A stretch of 42,184 nucleotides of DNA from Campylobacterales bacterium (GTDB taxonomy: Bacteria; Campylobacterota; Campylobacteria; Campylobacterales; JALSKU01): contig JALUBK010000002.1 of NCBI GenBank assembly GCA_027044945.1, forward strand, positions 1 through 42,184, read 5' to 3'. The translations under genes were made by a program, and so were the position numbers. The notes below the pieces were generated by a model. It searched no databases, was not told where the DNA came from, and saw nothing but the letters and a program-made list of their open reading frames with translations. Below, piece after piece: positions 6,188 to 28,485 of the stretch. Position 1 is the first letter of the stretch. Each line of letters begins with the position of its first letter.

Positions 6188-7774
6188 TTATAAAACAGTA
6201 TATGCTACACCTAAACAAGTAGGCAATTCTTTTAATTCTTGCAAAACTTTTTTATCAACATTATTATCAACGAGTATAGCAGATAATGCTTGTCCTTTAT
6301 CGTCTCTTCCGAGTCTAAAATCAGCAATATTAATATCATTTTTAGCTAAAATTGTTCCTATTTCTCCAATAACACCAGGGACATCTGTGTTTTTAAATAT
6401 AATCATTTTACCTGTTGGCTCAATATCCAAATCAAAACCATCAAATTTTACAATTCTTTGAATATTGTCTCCAAAAGCAGTTCCTTTTATTTCAGATGTG
6501 CCTTTATTTGTAGTAATATACAAATCAATACTATTTTTAAATGCACTTTTTCCAGTAAATTTTTCTTTTATCAATTTAATATTTTTTTCTTCGGCAATAA
6601 ATTCAGCATTTACATAATTTATTTGAGCACCCATTGATTCCTTTAAAGCACCAACTATTGCAAAAGTCATTAAAGAATCAATATAATCAGATATTTCTCC
6701 CTCTGTAACAATTTTTATAGTTCCAATGGAAGCTTTATTTACTTGGGCTACAAAAGAGGCCATTTTTTGCATTAATTCAAGATATGGTTTTACAAATGAT
6801 GGAATTTTTGTCTCATCAATCGGAAGATTTAAAGCATTTGGAAAACTACTTCCTCTAGCTGCACTAATAGCTTGAGAAGCGGCTTGTGTTGCAATTTTTT
6901 CTTGAGATTCATGAGTATTAGCACCAAGATGAGGAGTAACTGAAACATTATCCAAATCAAGAAGTTTATTGTTTATTGCAGGTTCTTTGACAAAAACATC
7001 TATACCAAGATATGCAATTTTACCACTTTTTAATCCATCATACAAAGCATCTTCATTATAAAGACCACCTCTAGCACAATTTACAAGTCTTACTCCATTT
7101 TTCATCTTGGAAATTTCATCATAAGATATTATATTAATTGTTTCTTTATTTTTTGGAGTATGAATAGTTATAAAATCACAAGACAAAATATCATCAAGAT
7201 TTTCACTATATTCAACACCCAAATCTATCGCTTTTTTAGAATCTATATAAGGATCATAAGCAACAACATCCATTCCAAATGCTTTAGCTCTAGTTGCAAC
7301 TCTACTTCCAATATTTCCAAATCCTATAATACCTAATTTCTTACCAAATAATTCAATACCATACCATTTTTCTCTTTTCCAAATTCTATCTAATTTTAAA
7401 TCATTGTTTGCATTTGGAAACGATCTAGCAGTTGCCAATAAATGAGCCATTGTCATTTCAACAGCAGCTATTGTATTTGCAGTAGGCACATTCATAACTA
7501 TTATACCTCTTTTACTGCATCCATCCATATCAACATTATCAACTCCGACACCAGCTCTAACAATAGCTTTTAAATTTTTAGCATTTTTCAAAAAAGCTTC
7601 ATTTACCGGAGTTGAACTTCTAGTTATTGCAATATCATATTCACCGATAACTTTCAACAATTCATCTTTAGGTAAATTTGCACCATTAAAAACTTCTATA
7701 TCTTCTTCGTTTGATAATAATTCTATACCTTTTTCATGTATAGTATCACAAACCATTACTTTTTTTACAGTCAT
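6188..7774 (-). CDS. serA: D-3-phosphoglycerate dehydrogenase
   Basis: SerA oxidises 3-phosphoglycerate to 3-phosphohydroxypyruvate with NAD+, the first step of serine synthesis. At 528 residues it is the long form: a substrate domain, the NAD domain with GIIGFGNIGSRVA (about 148-160), the catalytic Arg in NCARGG, the Glu in VKEPA and the His in PHLGANTHE. An intervening ASB-type domain follows, then a C-terminal ACT domain (about 455-528, MIIFKNTDVPGVIGEIGTIL) that in this family senses serine. The ATG overlaps the stop of the upstream small gene (ATGA), so translation is probably coupled. The efflux operon begins 20 bp downstream with no visible terminator. I recall the same serA / small protein / rpsA order in C. 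jejuni. Confidence 0.96.
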   Translation of the reverse strand: MTVKKVMVCDTIHEKGIELLSNEEDIEVFNGANLPKDELLKVIGEYDIAITRSSTPVNEAFLKNAKNLKAIVRAGVGVDNVDMDGCSKRGIIVMNVPTANTIAAVEMTMAHLLATARSFPNANNDLKLDRIWKREKWYGIELFGKKLGIIGFGNIGSRVATRAKAFGMDVVAYDPYIDSKKAIDLGVEYSENLDDILSCDFITIHTPKNKETINIISYDEISKMKNGVRLVNCARGGLYNEDALYDGLKSGKIAYLGIDVFVKEPAINNKLLDLDNVSVTPHLGANTHESQEKIATQAASQAISAARGSSFPNALNLPIDETKIPSFVKPYLELMQKMASFVAQVNKASIGTIKIVTEGEISDYIDSLMTFAIVGALKESMGAQINYVNAEFIAEEKNIKLIKEKFTGKSAFKNSIDLYITTNKGTSEIKGTAFGDNIQRIVKFDGFDLDIEPTGKMIIFKNTDVPGVIGEIGTILAKNDINIADFRLGRDDKGQALSAILVDNNVDKKVLQELKELPTCLGVAYTVL

Positions 7775-22493: not shown

Positions 22494-22847
22494 TTAGTTT
22501 TTTATTTTTAATTTTCCAAAAACTTTATATTTGTTCCAATATATATCAATAGCTTTTTTCAATTCTTTGTTGCTTAATTTTGATGGCATTTTGATACCAT
22601 ATCTATTGATATAACCTTTTGGCATTATTGTTTTATAGTATGATGGATGTTTTAAATAATCATAAAGAGATTTTTCTACCATTCTTTTGCTACTATATTT
22701 TAAAAGATACGCATAAAATAATTTATCAAGAGTAACTGCTTGATTTTTATGACATTTTACACAATTTCTTTGATAAATGTTTTTTTTTGCCATTAAAGAT
22801 GAAGCAAAAATAATAAACAAAAATAATAAACATATTTTTTTTACCAT
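22494..22847 (-). CDS. Small exported c-type cytochrome
   Basis: This 117-residue protein has a signal peptide (about 1-20, ending SSLMA) and a single haem-binding motif CVKCH (Cys29, Cys32, His33) immediately after the mature start. Downstream, ITIMPKGYINRYGIKMPSKLSNKEL offers methionines for an axial ligand. The small size and KLSNKELKKAIDIYW helix fit a class I monohaem cytochrome in the periplasm. Its ATG overlaps the histidine-kinase stop by seven bases, so it is the last gene of the DUF1104-RR-HK-cytochrome operon. Its role may be electron transfer, or redox signalling to the kinase; the sequence does not decide. Confidence 0.85.
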   Translation of the reverse strand: MVKKICLLFLFIIFASSLMAKKNIYQRNCVKCHKNQAVTLDKLFYAYLLKYSSKRMVEKSLYDYLKHPSYYKTIMPKGYINRYGIKMPSKLSNKELKKAIDIYWNKYKVFGKLKIKN

Positions 22848-23995
22848 TTTACAATAACCTTTGTAAATTTATCCTTTTCTGATTGAACATCAATAATCAA
22901 ATTGTATTCTTTTGCAATCATTGCGACTATATTCAACCCTATTCCAAAACCACCTGAAACTTCATTAAATCTTTTATATCTATCAAATATTTGATTGATT
23001 TTATCTTTTGGTATCCCTATACCATTATCTTTTACAGATAAAAATTTATTTTTAAGTTTTATTTCTATTTTACCATTTATTTTATTATATTTAATAGCAT
23101 TAGAGATAAGATTATCAATTAATTTTATAATTTTATTTTTATCAATATAAAGATATATGTTATCTTCTATATCTAAAATGAAATCTATTTTTTTCGATTT
23201 TGCTATTATCTTAAAATATTCACATCTATTTTTCAAAATATTTGATATATTTATTTTCTCATTAAAAGTTTGTATTTTATGATTTAAAGTAAGATATGTT
23301 AAATCTTGATAAATATTTGATATAGTTCTAGCAGCTATATCTATTCTTTCTATTTTCCTCACCGTTTTTATATCAACTCTTTTTTTATCTACTGTTTCAA
23401 TATTTGCCAAAATTGCACTAATTGGAGTATTTAATTCATGTGTCGTATCTTTTATAAATCTATCGAGTAAAATAATAAAATCTCTCATAGGTTTTAAAAA
23501 AAGTTTCATTAAAAAAAATCCTATAATGATGACAAAAATAAAAAAAGGTACACCAAATAATATAATTTGTTTCAGAAATAATTTAAACCATTTTCTATTA
23601 TCTTTTATCTCAAAAACAACATATTTTGCACCTAAATAATAAGCTTCTGGTTCTTTTATGTATTGGATTTGATCACCTTTCTCATATATCACTTTATCCA
23701 AATCTGGTTTTTGTTTCAATAAAGAAAATATTTTTATTTTATCACTATCATAAATACCTGTTCTTATATTTTTATTGGTTGGATATATATGAGTTTTGGA
23801 AAAATTTCTATGCAGTATTTTTAATTTTTCTATAAAAGTTTTGGAATAATTTTGCAAAAATTCTCTCTCTTTTTGAAGCATTAAATCTTTTTTAAAATGA
23901 TAATACAATAATGTTGTAAAAACAGCTATAACTAAAGATAAAAAAATATAAAGCAATAAAAAAGAAATTAAACTTTTCTTTTCACTTTGTAACAA
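22841..23995 (-). CDS. Two-component sensor histidine kinase
   Basis: The 384-residue protein has TM1 (about 9-32), a periplasmic segment of about 110 residues and TM2 (about 144-166). Almost directly after it comes the dimerisation/phosphoacceptor helix with His186 in FIKDTTHELNTPISAIL. No full HAMP domain fits between TM2 and this helix, which is unusual. The ATPase domain has N-box NLISNAIKYNKI, G1 VKDNGIGIP and G2 GGFGIGLNIV. The start is TTG, 7 nt after GGGA, overlapping the end of the response-regulator gene by 14 bases; no ATG is available in frame. It presumably phosphorylates the upstream regulator. The periplasmic sensor part has no recognised domain, so the signal is unknown. Confidence 0.92.
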   Translation of the reverse strand: MLQSEKKSLISFLLLYIFLSLVIAVFTTLLYYHFKKDLMLQKEREFLQNYSKTFIEKLKILHRNFSKTHIYPTNKNIRTGIYDSDKIKIFSLLKQKPDLDKVIYEKGDQIQYIKEPEAYYLGAKYVVFEIKDNRKWFKLFLKQIILFGVPFFIFVIIIGFFLMKLFLKPMRDFIILLDRFIKDTTHELNTPISAILANIETVDKKRVDIKTVRKIERIDIAARTISNIYQDLTYLTLNHKIQTFNEKINISNILKNRCEYFKIIAKSKKIDFILDIEDNIYLYIDKNKIIKLIDNLISNAIKYNKINGKIEIKLKNKFLSVKDNGIGIPKDKINQIFDRYKRFNEVSGGFGIGLNIVAMIAKEYNLIIDVQSEKDKFTKVIVKW

Positions 23996-24656
23996 GCCTA
24001 TATCCCAATTTTTTAATACTTAATATGCTATCTTTGCCCAAAATTTTTCTAAGATTTTTTATATAAGCTCTTAATGAATTATCACTATAAGTTTCGCCAT
24101 ACTCCCATAAAGTATTATAAATATTGTCATGCGAAAGTATTTTGTTTTGGTTTTGTAAAAAAAGTTTTAAAAGTTTATTTTCTTTATTGCTTAATTTGAT
24201 TATTTTTTTATCTTTAATTATTTCATTTGTATCAACTTTATAATAACAATTTTCATTGAATTTTATAATATTTTCTTTTTTGTGGAAAAAACTTCTTTTT
24301 AATATTGTTTGCACCCTTAAAAGTAATTCTTTTAAAGCAAAGGGTTTGCGTATATAATCATCACAGCCACTTTTAAAACCATTTGTCAAATCGTCAGTAG
24401 AATTTAAAGAAGTAATAAAAATAGCTGGTGTTTCATTTCCATTTGCTCTTATTTTTTTCAAAAGTTCAAAACCGTTTATCCCTGGAACATTAACATCTAA
24501 AAGAAGAATATCAAAATTATTTTCATATATCACATCTTCTGCACTCAATCCATCATAAGCACAAACAACTTTAAAATCATTATCGTTTAAAAATTCTTCA
24601 ATAGTTTCGCTTAAATTTATATCATCTTCTAATAATAATATTTTATTATTTTGCAT
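23982..24656 (-). CDS. OmpR/PhoB-family response regulator
   Basis: The 224-residue protein has an N-terminal receiver with the acidic pair Asp11/Asp12, phosphoacceptor Asp54 (DILLLDVNVPG), the Thr/Ser switch in FITSL and the conserved Lys in IRKPFALKELLLRV. A C-terminal winged helix (about 130-224) has NKENKLLKLFLQN, the recognition helix SDNSLRAYIKNLRKIL and the wing IKKLGYRLV. It is therefore a DNA-binding transcriptional regulator. It overlaps the DUF1104 gene by 11 bases and the kinase by 14. The inverted repeat over the operon promoter (24894-24923) is a candidate site for autoregulation. Confidence 0.93.
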   Translation of the reverse strand: MQNNKILLLEDDINLSETIEEFLNDNDFKVVCAYDGLSAEDVIYENNFDILLLDVNVPGINGFELLKKIRANGNETPAIFITSLNSTDDLTNGFKSGCDDYIRKPFALKELLLRVQTILKRSFFHKKENIIKFNENCYYKVDTNEIIKDKKIIKLSNKENKLLKLFLQNQNKILSHDNIYNTLWEYGETYSDNSLRAYIKNLRKILGKDSILSIKKLGYRLVTK

Positions 24657-24879
24657 TTTGTTTTTTCAATAGTTTTAAGTTCAATTCATACTCTTTTTTC
24701 TCTTTTTTACTCATCTCTTTTATTCGATTTTTCAACTCTTTCAAAATAGAATTTTTATCTTTTTTAATAATTGTATAATTCATAATAGCTAAAAGTTCTT
24801 GTGTGCTCATAGCACTATAATCAAAATTTGCACCCAATAAAAAAAGAGGGACAATCAAAATAAGCAAAATTATTTTCAT
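24646..24879 (-). CDS. Small exported DUF1104-like protein
   Basis: This 77-residue protein has a signal peptide (about 1-17, LLILIVPLFLLGA). The short mature part reads NFDYSAMSTQELLAIMNYT, then Lys/Glu-rich helices ending ELNLKLLKKQNAK. The SxMSTxELLAxM stretch is what I associate with DUF1104, a family of small periplasmic proteins found in Campylobacter and Helicobacter with no assigned function. It is the first gene of the operon, and its end overlaps the response regulator by 11 bases. Its place before a sensor kinase suggests an accessory periplasmic component, such as a signal-binding or target protein; that is inference. Confidence 0.72.
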   Translation of the reverse strand: MKIILLILIVPLFLLGANFDYSAMSTQELLAIMNYTIIKKDKNSILKELKNRIKEMSKKEKKEYELNLKLLKKQNAK

Positions 24880-24893
24880 TTGTAATTTCCTGT

Positions 24894-24923
24894 GATAGTC
24901 TTTGATTTAATTCAAAGATTATC
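24894..24923 (-). promoter_or_regulatory. Inverted repeat, candidate operator of the DUF1104-RR-HK-cytochrome operon
   Basis: Twelve-base arms (GATAATCTTTGA and TCAAAGACTATC on the minus strand) flank a 6-base spacer, with one mismatch. The left arm includes the candidate -10 box, so a bound protein would block transcription. No U-run follows, which argues against a terminator for hspR. Confidence 0.5.
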
Positions 24924-24947
24924 AAAAAATTGTTTATTAATTGTGAA
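24918..24947 (-). promoter_or_regulatory. Candidate sigma-70 promoter for the DUF1104 operon
   Basis: On the minus strand TTCACA (24942-24947), 18 bases, GATAAT (24918-24923). Each hexamer matches consensus at five of six positions. The start point would fall inside the inverted repeat, about 30 bases before the ATG. Confidence 0.45.
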
Positions 24948-24955
24948 TAATATTT

Positions 24956-25330
24956 TTATTCTCCAAAAAGAATAACATCATAAATATGCTTCTTCTTGAT
25001 AAGATTTTTATTTTCATCAATTGTGCCTTTTTTTCTCAAAATTGACAATTCTTTTCTCATCTGTTCAATCTCTTTTTCCATTTCATCAATTTGTGTTTTA
25101 AATTGCAAAACTATATCAACTCCTGCTAAATTAACCCCCAAATCTCTTGTCAATCTTAATATCATTTTTATTTTATCTATATCTTTTTGAGAATAAAGTC
25201 TCATTCTACCCTCAGTTCGAGAAGGTTCAATAAGTCCTTCTCGCTCATATTGTCTTAATGTTTGTGGATGAATTGATAAAACTTTTGCAACAACACTTAT
25301 TAAATAAACTGGTTCTTCATATCCATGCAT
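24956..25330 (-). CDS. hspR: MerR-family heat-shock repressor HspR
   Basis: HspR represses chaperone genes by binding HAIR elements. The 124-residue protein begins with a MerR-type winged helix: PVYLISVVAKVLSIHPQTLRQYEREGLIEPSRTEGRMRLYSQKDI is the HspR form, with the IHPQTLRxYE recognition helix and the GRxRLYS wing. A coiled coil follows (about 75-105: TQIDEMEKEIEQMRKEL), then a basic tail. It lies 1 bp behind cbpA, with SD GGAG before its ATG. The HAIR-like site upstream of cbpA implies autoregulation of the pair. In Helicobacter and Campylobacter the gene pair and control are known. Confidence 0.95.
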   Translation of the reverse strand: MHGYEEPVYLISVVAKVLSIHPQTLRQYEREGLIEPSRTEGRMRLYSQKDIDKIKMILRLTRDLGVNLAGVDIVLQFKTQIDEMEKEIEQMRKELSILRKKGTIDENKNLIKKKHIYDVILFGE

Positions 25331-27807: not shown

Positions 27808-28485
27808 ATGATAAAAGTTTTAATGATAGAAGATGATGGAGAATTGGCAGAAATATTGACAGAATATCTTGATCAATTTGACATAAAAGTAAAAAATGTG
27901 GAAGATCCTTATTTGGGTCTTTCTACATTATCTGTTGAAAAATTTGATTTAATTATTCTCGACTTAACACTTCCCGGTATTGACGGACTAGATGTTTGTA
28001 AAGAGATAAGGCAAGATTGCAATACACCTATCATTATATCATCAGCCAGGCATGATATAATGGATAAAGTAACTGCACTTGAAAATGGAGCAGATGACTA
28101 TTTGCCAAAACCATACAATCCAAGAGAATTAGAAGCTAGAATAAGAACAATTTTAAGAAGACAACCAGTTATAAATAAAAATGAAAATGAAAAAAAGCAA
28201 TCAGAAATAATTTTAAATGAAAAAAAACATGAAATCAAACATAAAAATAAAATCTTAGACTTGACTGCAGCAGAATATGGAATACTTCGATATCTCATAA
28301 AAAAAGAAGGGGGTGTTGTTTCAAGAGAAGAGCTTATTTATAATGTTGAAGCTATAAGTGAAGAAAGTAGCAATAAAAGTATAGATGTAATTATAGGCAG
28401 AATAAGACATAAATTAGGAGAATCTCCAAAAGAACCAAAGCATATAAAAGCAGTTAGAGGCATAGGCTATAAATTTATATCATGA
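27808..28485 (+). CDS. OmpR/PhoB-family response regulator of the htrA operon
   Basis: The 225-residue protein has an N-terminal receiver: acidic residues Asp9 and Asp10 (IEDDGE), phosphoacceptor Asp52 (IILDLTLPGIDG), Ser in IIISSARH and Lys in LPKPYNPREL. A charged linker (about 120-145) follows. The C-terminal winged-helix DNA-binding domain contains DLTAAEYGILRYLI, the recognition helix SNKSIDVIIGRIRHKLGE and the wing AVRGIGYKFIS. It lies 10 bp after htrA with SD GGAG and overlaps the kinase gene by four bases (ATGA). It probably controls envelope genes, possibly including htrA, but no operator was identified. Confidence 0.94.
   Translation: MIKVLMIEDDGELAEILTEYLDQFDIKVKNVEDPYLGLSTLSVEKFDLIILDLTLPGIDGLDVCKEIRQDCNTPIIISSARHDIMDKVTALENGADDYLPKPYNPRELEARIRTILRRQPVINKNENEKKQSEIILNEKKHEIKHKNKILDLTAAEYGILRYLIKKEGGVVSREELIYNVEAISEESSNKSIDVIIGRIRHKLGESPKEPKHIKAVRGIGYKFIS

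Follow-up and report, generated by a model that had tools for sequence, protein, structure and literature searches.

Four overlapping genes in a 42,184-nucleotide stretch of a Campylobacterales bacterium (assembly GCA_027044945.1, contig JALUBK010000002.1; here, the window) encode a DUF1104-like small exported protein, an OmpR-type response regulator (RR), a HAMP-less sensor histidine kinase (HK), and a mono-haem c-type cytochrome (cytC). We think it probable, at roughly 60%, that they form an old envelope two-component system resembling DccRS, in which the kinase works together with a dedicated periplasmic c-type cytochrome. Judging from sequence comparisons, it is most likely that a periplasmic haem-c or redox condition is sensed via the cytochrome and that the soluble cytochrome c553 and envelope-protective proteins are raised in response. 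DccRS is a Campylobacter colonisation regulator whose trigger is described only as late growth phase, and the retention of a haem protein beside the kinase of a relative makes haem-c or redox state a candidate signal. The analysis also supplies a predicted operator and target genes.

The adjacency is not restricted to the genome in which an earlier note, made from this DNA alone, had described it; the same gene order was sought in other genomes and is present in many. A class-wide survey of 298 genomes (cytC match threshold, E ≤ 0.001) gave cytC homologues in 67, the window's genome included, and a DUF1104-like match, linked or unlinked to the operon, in 71. Five of eight relatives from the window's own genus (G001, G002, G003, G004, and G008) have the full four-gene order; G006 shows the first three genes, the last being cut by the contig end, G007 has HK-cytC at a contig edge, and in G005, a draft genome that is 87% complete, the operon was not located. 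The best cytC place in 58 of the 66 other genomes made up a first set, chosen by cytC and not by the DUF1104-like gene. HK and cytC are adjacent on the same strand at all 58 loci, with a gap of ≤20 bp or an overlap at 53 (median, -7), and RR and HK overlap at all 56 loci where an RR is present. L178 and L182 have another, unrelated open reading frame (ORF) at the RR position and keep the HK-cytC pair; by eye, that ORF resembles a Uma2-type endonuclease. The DUF1104-like gene was recognised 5' of the RR at 33 of the 58 loci at least, since it can be masked by a long RR reading, as at L166. A second batch of 20 further cytC places, consisting of the eight remaining best places and 12 second places, showed RR-HK-cytC at seven and 10 of these, respectively (17 in all). 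Since second places are RR-HK-cytC, some genomes hold two systems, each with its own cytochrome; most of the ten second copies (L385 to L394) group by themselves in the larger RR tree described below. Overall, 78 cytC places were examined across the class outside the window's genome, and a kinase adjoins cytC at 75 of them, a count that excludes nine weaker or partial cytC matches (E, 1.5e-10 to 6.5e-4), and this neighbourhood exceeds chance.

The cytC-linked kinases share the motifs YP, [AG]I[YF]D, IFS, and YYLG in their periplasmic part. The pattern YY[LMF]G is present in 64 of 65 such kinases from the first set and the own genus and in 14 of the 17 from the second batch, giving a total of 78 of 82, and in none of 15 other kinases (the f2/f3 and Crd-like sets), for which no CxxCH was found within up to 900 bp 3' of the gene. 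Likewise, [AG]I[YF]D occurs in 65 of 65 cytC-linked kinases versus 1 of the 15 others. Across 62 loci, the partial correlation between cytC and sensor distances, with catalytic and RR distances removed, was 0.51, and that between cytC and the catalytic part (others removed) was 0.31; both exceeded all 500 mirror-tree permutations, which ignore phylogeny and leave shared ancestry in. The earlier note had placed about 110 periplasmic residues in no recognised family, and indeed neither Pfam nor a PDB sequence search of the sensor part gave a credible match: no Pfam family was hit in more than 2 of 22 members (best E, 0.0067), and the best PDB match had an E of 0.95. An AlphaFold2 model of the sensor part built from two sequences (pLDDT, 75.7; pTM, 0.52) has two long helices flanking five strands. 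It aligned with PDC/PAS-type sensors, among them Mlp24 (Z, 9.8), CusS (8.4), PhoQ (7.8), and CpxA (6.7), where chance commonly reaches 7 to 8, and Foldseek returned none under an E of 0.001 (best, 0.27). On the strength of this model, a PAS/PDC-like (CACHE-like) fold is probable.

The cytochrome name had been given in the earlier note, and the window protein falls below the Pfam cut-off for Cytochrome_CBB3 (20.3 versus 27 bits), with no credible PDB match by sequence; what speaks for the name is that CxxCH is present in all 64 aligned cytC rows. Pro68, Leu96, and Tyr103 are also kept in all 64 rows, and Tyr47 is kept in 63. The position that is likely, from the alignment, to supply the sixth haem ligand is Met in 36 of the 64 rows, including all f1, f4, and f7 sequences, 3 of 5 from f9, 1 of 2 from f10, and 1 of 7 from f8. 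Replacement follows lineages, with Leu in all 15 f11 and 6 of 7 f8 sequences and Ala or Ser in all four f12 sequences. Because this likely ligand is lost in whole lineages, a sensor or an exchangeable site fits better than a conserved electron carrier. An AlphaFold2 model of cytC alone reached a pLDDT of 63 and was not used.

The coordinates agree with the earlier description of four overlapping minus-strand genes (Table 1), the overlaps being 11 bp (DUF1104-like/RR), 14 bp (RR/HK), and 7 bp (HK/cytC). The single shared promoter proposed there is also matched by one promoter-like region upstream of the first gene, with a 22-bp site formed by an 11-bp direct repeat and then a -10-like box. Pfam identified Response_reg and Trans_reg_C in the RR, and HisKA (177 to 235) and HATPase_c (285 to 383) in the HK; it reported no HAMP domain in the HK, consistent with the kinase having been called HAMP-less, and the periplasmic residues lie between two predicted membrane helices. 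The DUF1104 name holds less directly, as the window protein scores 20.5 bits against a PF06518 cut-off of 25, covering positions 1 to 49 of 92, and it is a relative's small protein (L135) that passes, at 35.1 bits. A PF06518 search of the window's genome gave no match, and 14 control genomes were equally blank, so that this tells little; by sequence, the closest PDB entry was HP0721 (2xrh; E, 0.022). With NCBIfam, the RR and HK match only models far under cut-off, and cytC and the DUF1104-like protein match none. A plasmid search with the RR gave a best match of 48%, and a search of viral contigs gave no match. Beside the operon lies hspR-cbpA-htrA; of the hspR loci retrieved, those with this setting all belong to the window's genus. 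The RR/HK pair at 27814+ beside htrA was set aside as CprRS-like.

Table 1. Features of the operon and its surroundings, with positions in the window
Feature	Position	Strand	Basis or remark
Predicted operator, 11-bp direct repeat ATTCACAATTAATAAACAATTT	24927..24948	-	22-bp model, 22.9 bits
-10-like GATAAT, 3 bp 3' of operator	24918..24923	-	Sequence; inference
DUF1104-like small exported protein, 77 aa, first gene	24646..24879	-	Pfam score below cut-off; homologues at other loci
RR, OmpR type, 224 aa, DccR-like	23982..24656	-	Pfam and RR trees
HK, HAMP-less, 384 aa, TTG start	22841..23995	-	Pfam and alignments
cytC, mono-haem c-type cytochrome, 117 aa, CxxCH, last gene	22494..22847	-	Alignment, homologue search
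hspR, neighbour upstream of operon	24956..25330	-	Gene-neighbourhood comparison
CprRS-like regulator directly 3' of htrA	27814-28479	+	Beside htrA in several other families too

The system is related to and probably works like DccRS, with its sensor part and its cytochrome setting it apart. A tree built from 85 regulators puts all 63 RRs belonging to cytC operons of the first set and the own genus into a single clade (99/92) in which families mostly stay together, and their sister is a set of 12 f2/f3 regulators that includes L261 (93/86, under the starred level); 8 of these 12 have a small DUF1104-like-looking gene 5' of them (Pfam-tested in two, L246 and L253). A larger tree, with 17 further cytC-linked RRs added and four long paralogues removed, still places all 80 cytC-linked RRs, second copies included, in one group (89/91; 90% of bootstrap trees) and recovers the f2/f3 group (100/93), with no resolved order among the cytC group, the f2/f3 group, and the CrdR-like rows. 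Orthologues of L261 occur in 47 of the 49 genomes of its genus. Three loci (L374 to L376) read groEL (by eye), kinase, regulator, hemerythrin (two of three), CprRS-like pair, htrA, cbpA, and hspR, and g11 genomes have the Campylobacter-type dcc-cpr-htrA-hspR order. The L261-type order is presumably that around dccRS in Campylobacter jejuni, and the DccRS holder among the compared loci was recognised by gene order. DccRS is the closest known system because of this C. jejuni order and its neighbouring place in the regulator tree, where the cytC RR group lies beside, not inside, DccR. DccS homologues are 32 to 36% identical to the window's HK (198 to 213 bits, compared with 51 to 53 bits for a CprS-like kinase), and each system lies close to hspR-cbpA-htrA-cprRS, that of the window within its genus and DccRS at the Campylobacter-like loci examined. 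However, dccRS lies on the opposite side of hspR from the window's operon, whose setting is confined to its genus; dccRS has no cytochrome 3' of the kinase, no YY[LMF]G in the DccS-type sensor (L261), and, at the three loci examined (L374 to L376), no small ORF of the DUF1104 type among those listed next to dccR. The DccR operator that Wosten is said to have described in 2010, wTTCAC-N6-TTCACw, has the same 11-bp period as that of the cytC systems. The operator is absent before dccR in L374 to L376, where the model picks up two weak sites (11.9 and 12.6 bits) within the hemerythrin gene, some 510 bp 5' of dccR. Published work gives the dccRS locus numbers in C. jejuni as cj1222c-1223c and the trigger as late stationary phase, probably through released metabolites (PMC9449129), and describes MacABC (Cj0606-0608) as linked to the DccRS regulon (PMC11365321). 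Comparably, L186 has a TolC-MFP-FtsX-ABC set (Pfam) 5' of the operon, with a 14.2-bit site before TolC, and L191 has such a set directly upstream (by eye). The accessible literature on DccRS, DUF1104, the operator repeat, and two-component/cytochrome pairs, in which subscription journals are thinly represented, yielded no description of the operon.

The 22-bp operator model was trained only on 63 first-gene promoters, that of the window's operon among them. It reaches ≥11 bits in 26 of these, with 95% of shuffled maxima below 3.8; the promoters under 11 bits are partly those of genes within longer operons. Applied to 67 loci (1.03 Mb), the model found 80 sites that reach ≥13 bits, training sites included, versus 19.35 with column-permuted models. 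Two held-out gene sets were enriched. Haem-less three-cysteine genes in operon loci had a site at ≥8 bits in 17 of 22 cases and at ≥13 bits in 13, and c553 genes did so in 21 and 15 of 44, respectively. The corresponding permuted-model rates were 1.4% (haem-less) and 2.2% (c553) at ≥8 bits and 0.07 to 0.23% at ≥13 bits, and 13 and 5 of 556 control ORFs had sites at the two thresholds. Haem-less genes from a class-wide search, whose loci are partly shared with the operon set, gave 23 of 33 at ≥8 bits. A profile search of the class for glycine-zipper genes yielded 30 loci, two of them without an ORF; of the 28 genes scored, 8 reached that threshold, against 1.7% for permuted models. A stringent pattern searched in 16 genomes gave eight sites versus none for the backward control, at five operon loci (known beforehand from the model scan), one distant haem-less gene, one distant glycine-zipper gene, and one gene for a 238-aa protein; it was absent from nine of the 16, including the DccRS holder G046. 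Within the own genus, a site with one mismatch lies 5' of the glycine-zipper gene in G001, G002, G004, and G006 to G008 and 5' of a DUF255 thioredoxin-like gene in G001 to G007; the glycine-zipper and DUF255 labels come from Pfam for one or two members, and the glycine-zipper sites in L225 to L232 and L279/L314, which a pattern search had picked out first, are not independent evidence. At L225 to L232, the gene for the glycine-zipper 2TM protein and the DUF255 gene diverge around a conserved operator-like site in five own-genus genomes, and in three further ones only one of the pair was seen. The window's genome has five one-mismatch sites, among them an intragenic one at 6447 of the window and one in L244 without an obvious target. 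At L233 and L234, a cytochrome b561-like gene and another OmpR-type regulator have TTTACAATTTCTTTACAATT upstream, perhaps reflecting a second regulator with a similar operator.

The haem-less three-cysteine family is undescribed. Its members are periplasmic proteins of about 107 aa, with homologues in 96 of the 298 class genomes and one in the window's genome (C35:10092-10418; L239:1793-2122). Two members had no Pfam match, and no credible PDB match was found by sequence. Cys41, His56, Cys78, and a C-terminal Cys are invariant in ten aligned members, most of which end in SDSGNVPSC. The family is present in 61 of 67 cytC genomes versus 35 of 231 others; phylogeny confounds this comparison, which was not taken as a test. 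By eye, its genes were found near Psr-like, DUF3373-like porin, FCSD-like, and MsrA-like genes.

The sequences themselves establish the gene order, the grouping of the regulators, the sensor motif, and the repeated occurrence of the operator. We propose that translational coupling would keep the cytochrome at the kinase's ratio and that the cytochrome would dock on the PAS/PDC-like sensor part, reporting the redox state of haem c, the presence of an oxidant, or a failure of cytochrome maturation. After a presumed phosphotransfer, the phosphorylated RR would bind the direct repeat in the -35 region and activate the c553, haem-less three-cysteine, and glycine-zipper genes as well as its own operon (positive autoregulation), with the DUF1104-like protein as a possible feedback modulator. 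The output would be more periplasmic electron carrier and more envelope- and thiol-protecting proteins. The earlier suggestion that haem or redox state is the signal thereby gains indirect support, from the linkage (including second copies and the two loci without an RR), the sensor motif, the closer agreement of cytC distances with the sensor part than with the catalytic part, and the presence of c553 in the predicted regulon. Its further suggestion that both small proteins are accessory sensors fares better for cytC than for the DUF1104-like protein, given the latter's recognition at at least 33 of 58 loci.

Several observations count against this proposal. The HK-cytC linkage also fits co-production without contact, and a neighbouring kinase is missing at three cytC matches, all of them weak (E, 6.6e-7 in G245, 1.3e-6 in G202, and 9.5e-4 in G134). 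Three of the 17 further cytC-linked kinases lack an exact YY[LMF]G, and the close sisterhood with DccR seen in the smaller tree (93/86) is no longer resolved in the larger one. The operator could belong to another OmpR-type regulator, and it precedes only 21 of 44 c553 and 8 of 28 glycine-zipper genes. The window's genome has unmismatched sites only at the operon and one haem-less gene (C35:10031); no operator was seen by eye upstream of its c553 gene (L245, C1:37501-37806), which lies away from the operon, and its glycine-zipper gene has no operator site. The own-genus scan with one mismatch found no excess over the backward control, and for this reason recurrent sites before orthologues and held-out tests were used instead.

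The same linkage could arise if cytC were simply an output: a cytochrome for electron transfer or the handling of peroxide, transcribed together with the regulator and making no contact with the kinase. We consider this unlikely, if not to be dismissed lightly: the predicted regulon does hold another soluble cytochrome, c553, and the probable Met ligand persists in all 13 f7, all 12 f4, and all six own-genus first-set sequences, but it is lost through f11, f12, and most of f8, and the sensor motif is missing from the 15 cytochrome-less relatives. Moreover, c553 is often under its own operator, whereas cytC stays beside the kinase. A Cpx-like envelope-stress system, with the DUF1104-like protein as a CpxP-like inhibitor and the cytochrome as secondary, appears improbable. 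In CpxP-CpxAR of Escherichia coli, a small periplasmic protein is likewise encoded with an envelope-sensing pair, an analogy that claims no homology between CpxP and DUF1104; the operon's first gene encodes a small exported protein, its own-genus neighbours are hspR-cbpA-htrA, CpxA is among the fold matches, and L186 and L191 have the TolC-MFP-FtsX-ABC set directly upstream. Yet the small gene was recognised before the RR in just over half of the cytC-chosen loci (a lower bound), and the RR/HK pair on the htrA side is a different, CprRS-like one.

Copper sensing of the CrdRS type, in which the kinase would read copper and the small proteins would be metal protective, seems distinctly improbable. 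CrdRS of Helicobacter pylori, which responds to copper and nitrosative stress, has an OmpR-type RR and a related HAMP-less kinase (L255 and L031), and the gene beside the CrdRS-type pair is one that we take, by eye, to be CrdA-like. An Arcobacter match (L031; RR, 49%; HK, 39%) lies beside copper-type efflux genes (by eye), the sensor model resembles CusS among others, and three Cys and one His of the haem-less target do not vary among ten aligned members. However, CrdRS-type pairs have no cytochrome 3' of the kinase, the CrdR-like RRs fall outside the cytC and DccR groups in both trees, on long branches that make their placement unsure, and no copper genes stand beside the operon among the loci listed. 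DccRS itself is not activated by copper, according to one report (PMC7118207).

A bolder form of the cytochrome-kinase proposal is that the sensory subunit of a PAS/PDC-type kinase is a haem sensor acting in trans, namely a free-standing periplasmic c-type cytochrome that lacks a conserved sixth ligand, that DccRS throughout the class descends from this form, and that lineages losing the cytochrome remodelled the sensor. This is possible, though we would lean against it as a whole; if true, sensing the periplasm through a kinase whose sensor subunit is a separate cytochrome would be unusual. The PrrBCA/RegB-SenC-RegA system of Rhodobacter, compared here by description, also co-encodes a kinase with a small periplasmic redox/copper protein, but SenC is not a c-type cytochrome. 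As a side observation, the f3 DUF1104-like proteins encoded before DccR-related regulators (L246, L251, L262, and L263) have long His-, Met-, or Cys-rich tails, a composition that suggests metal binding.

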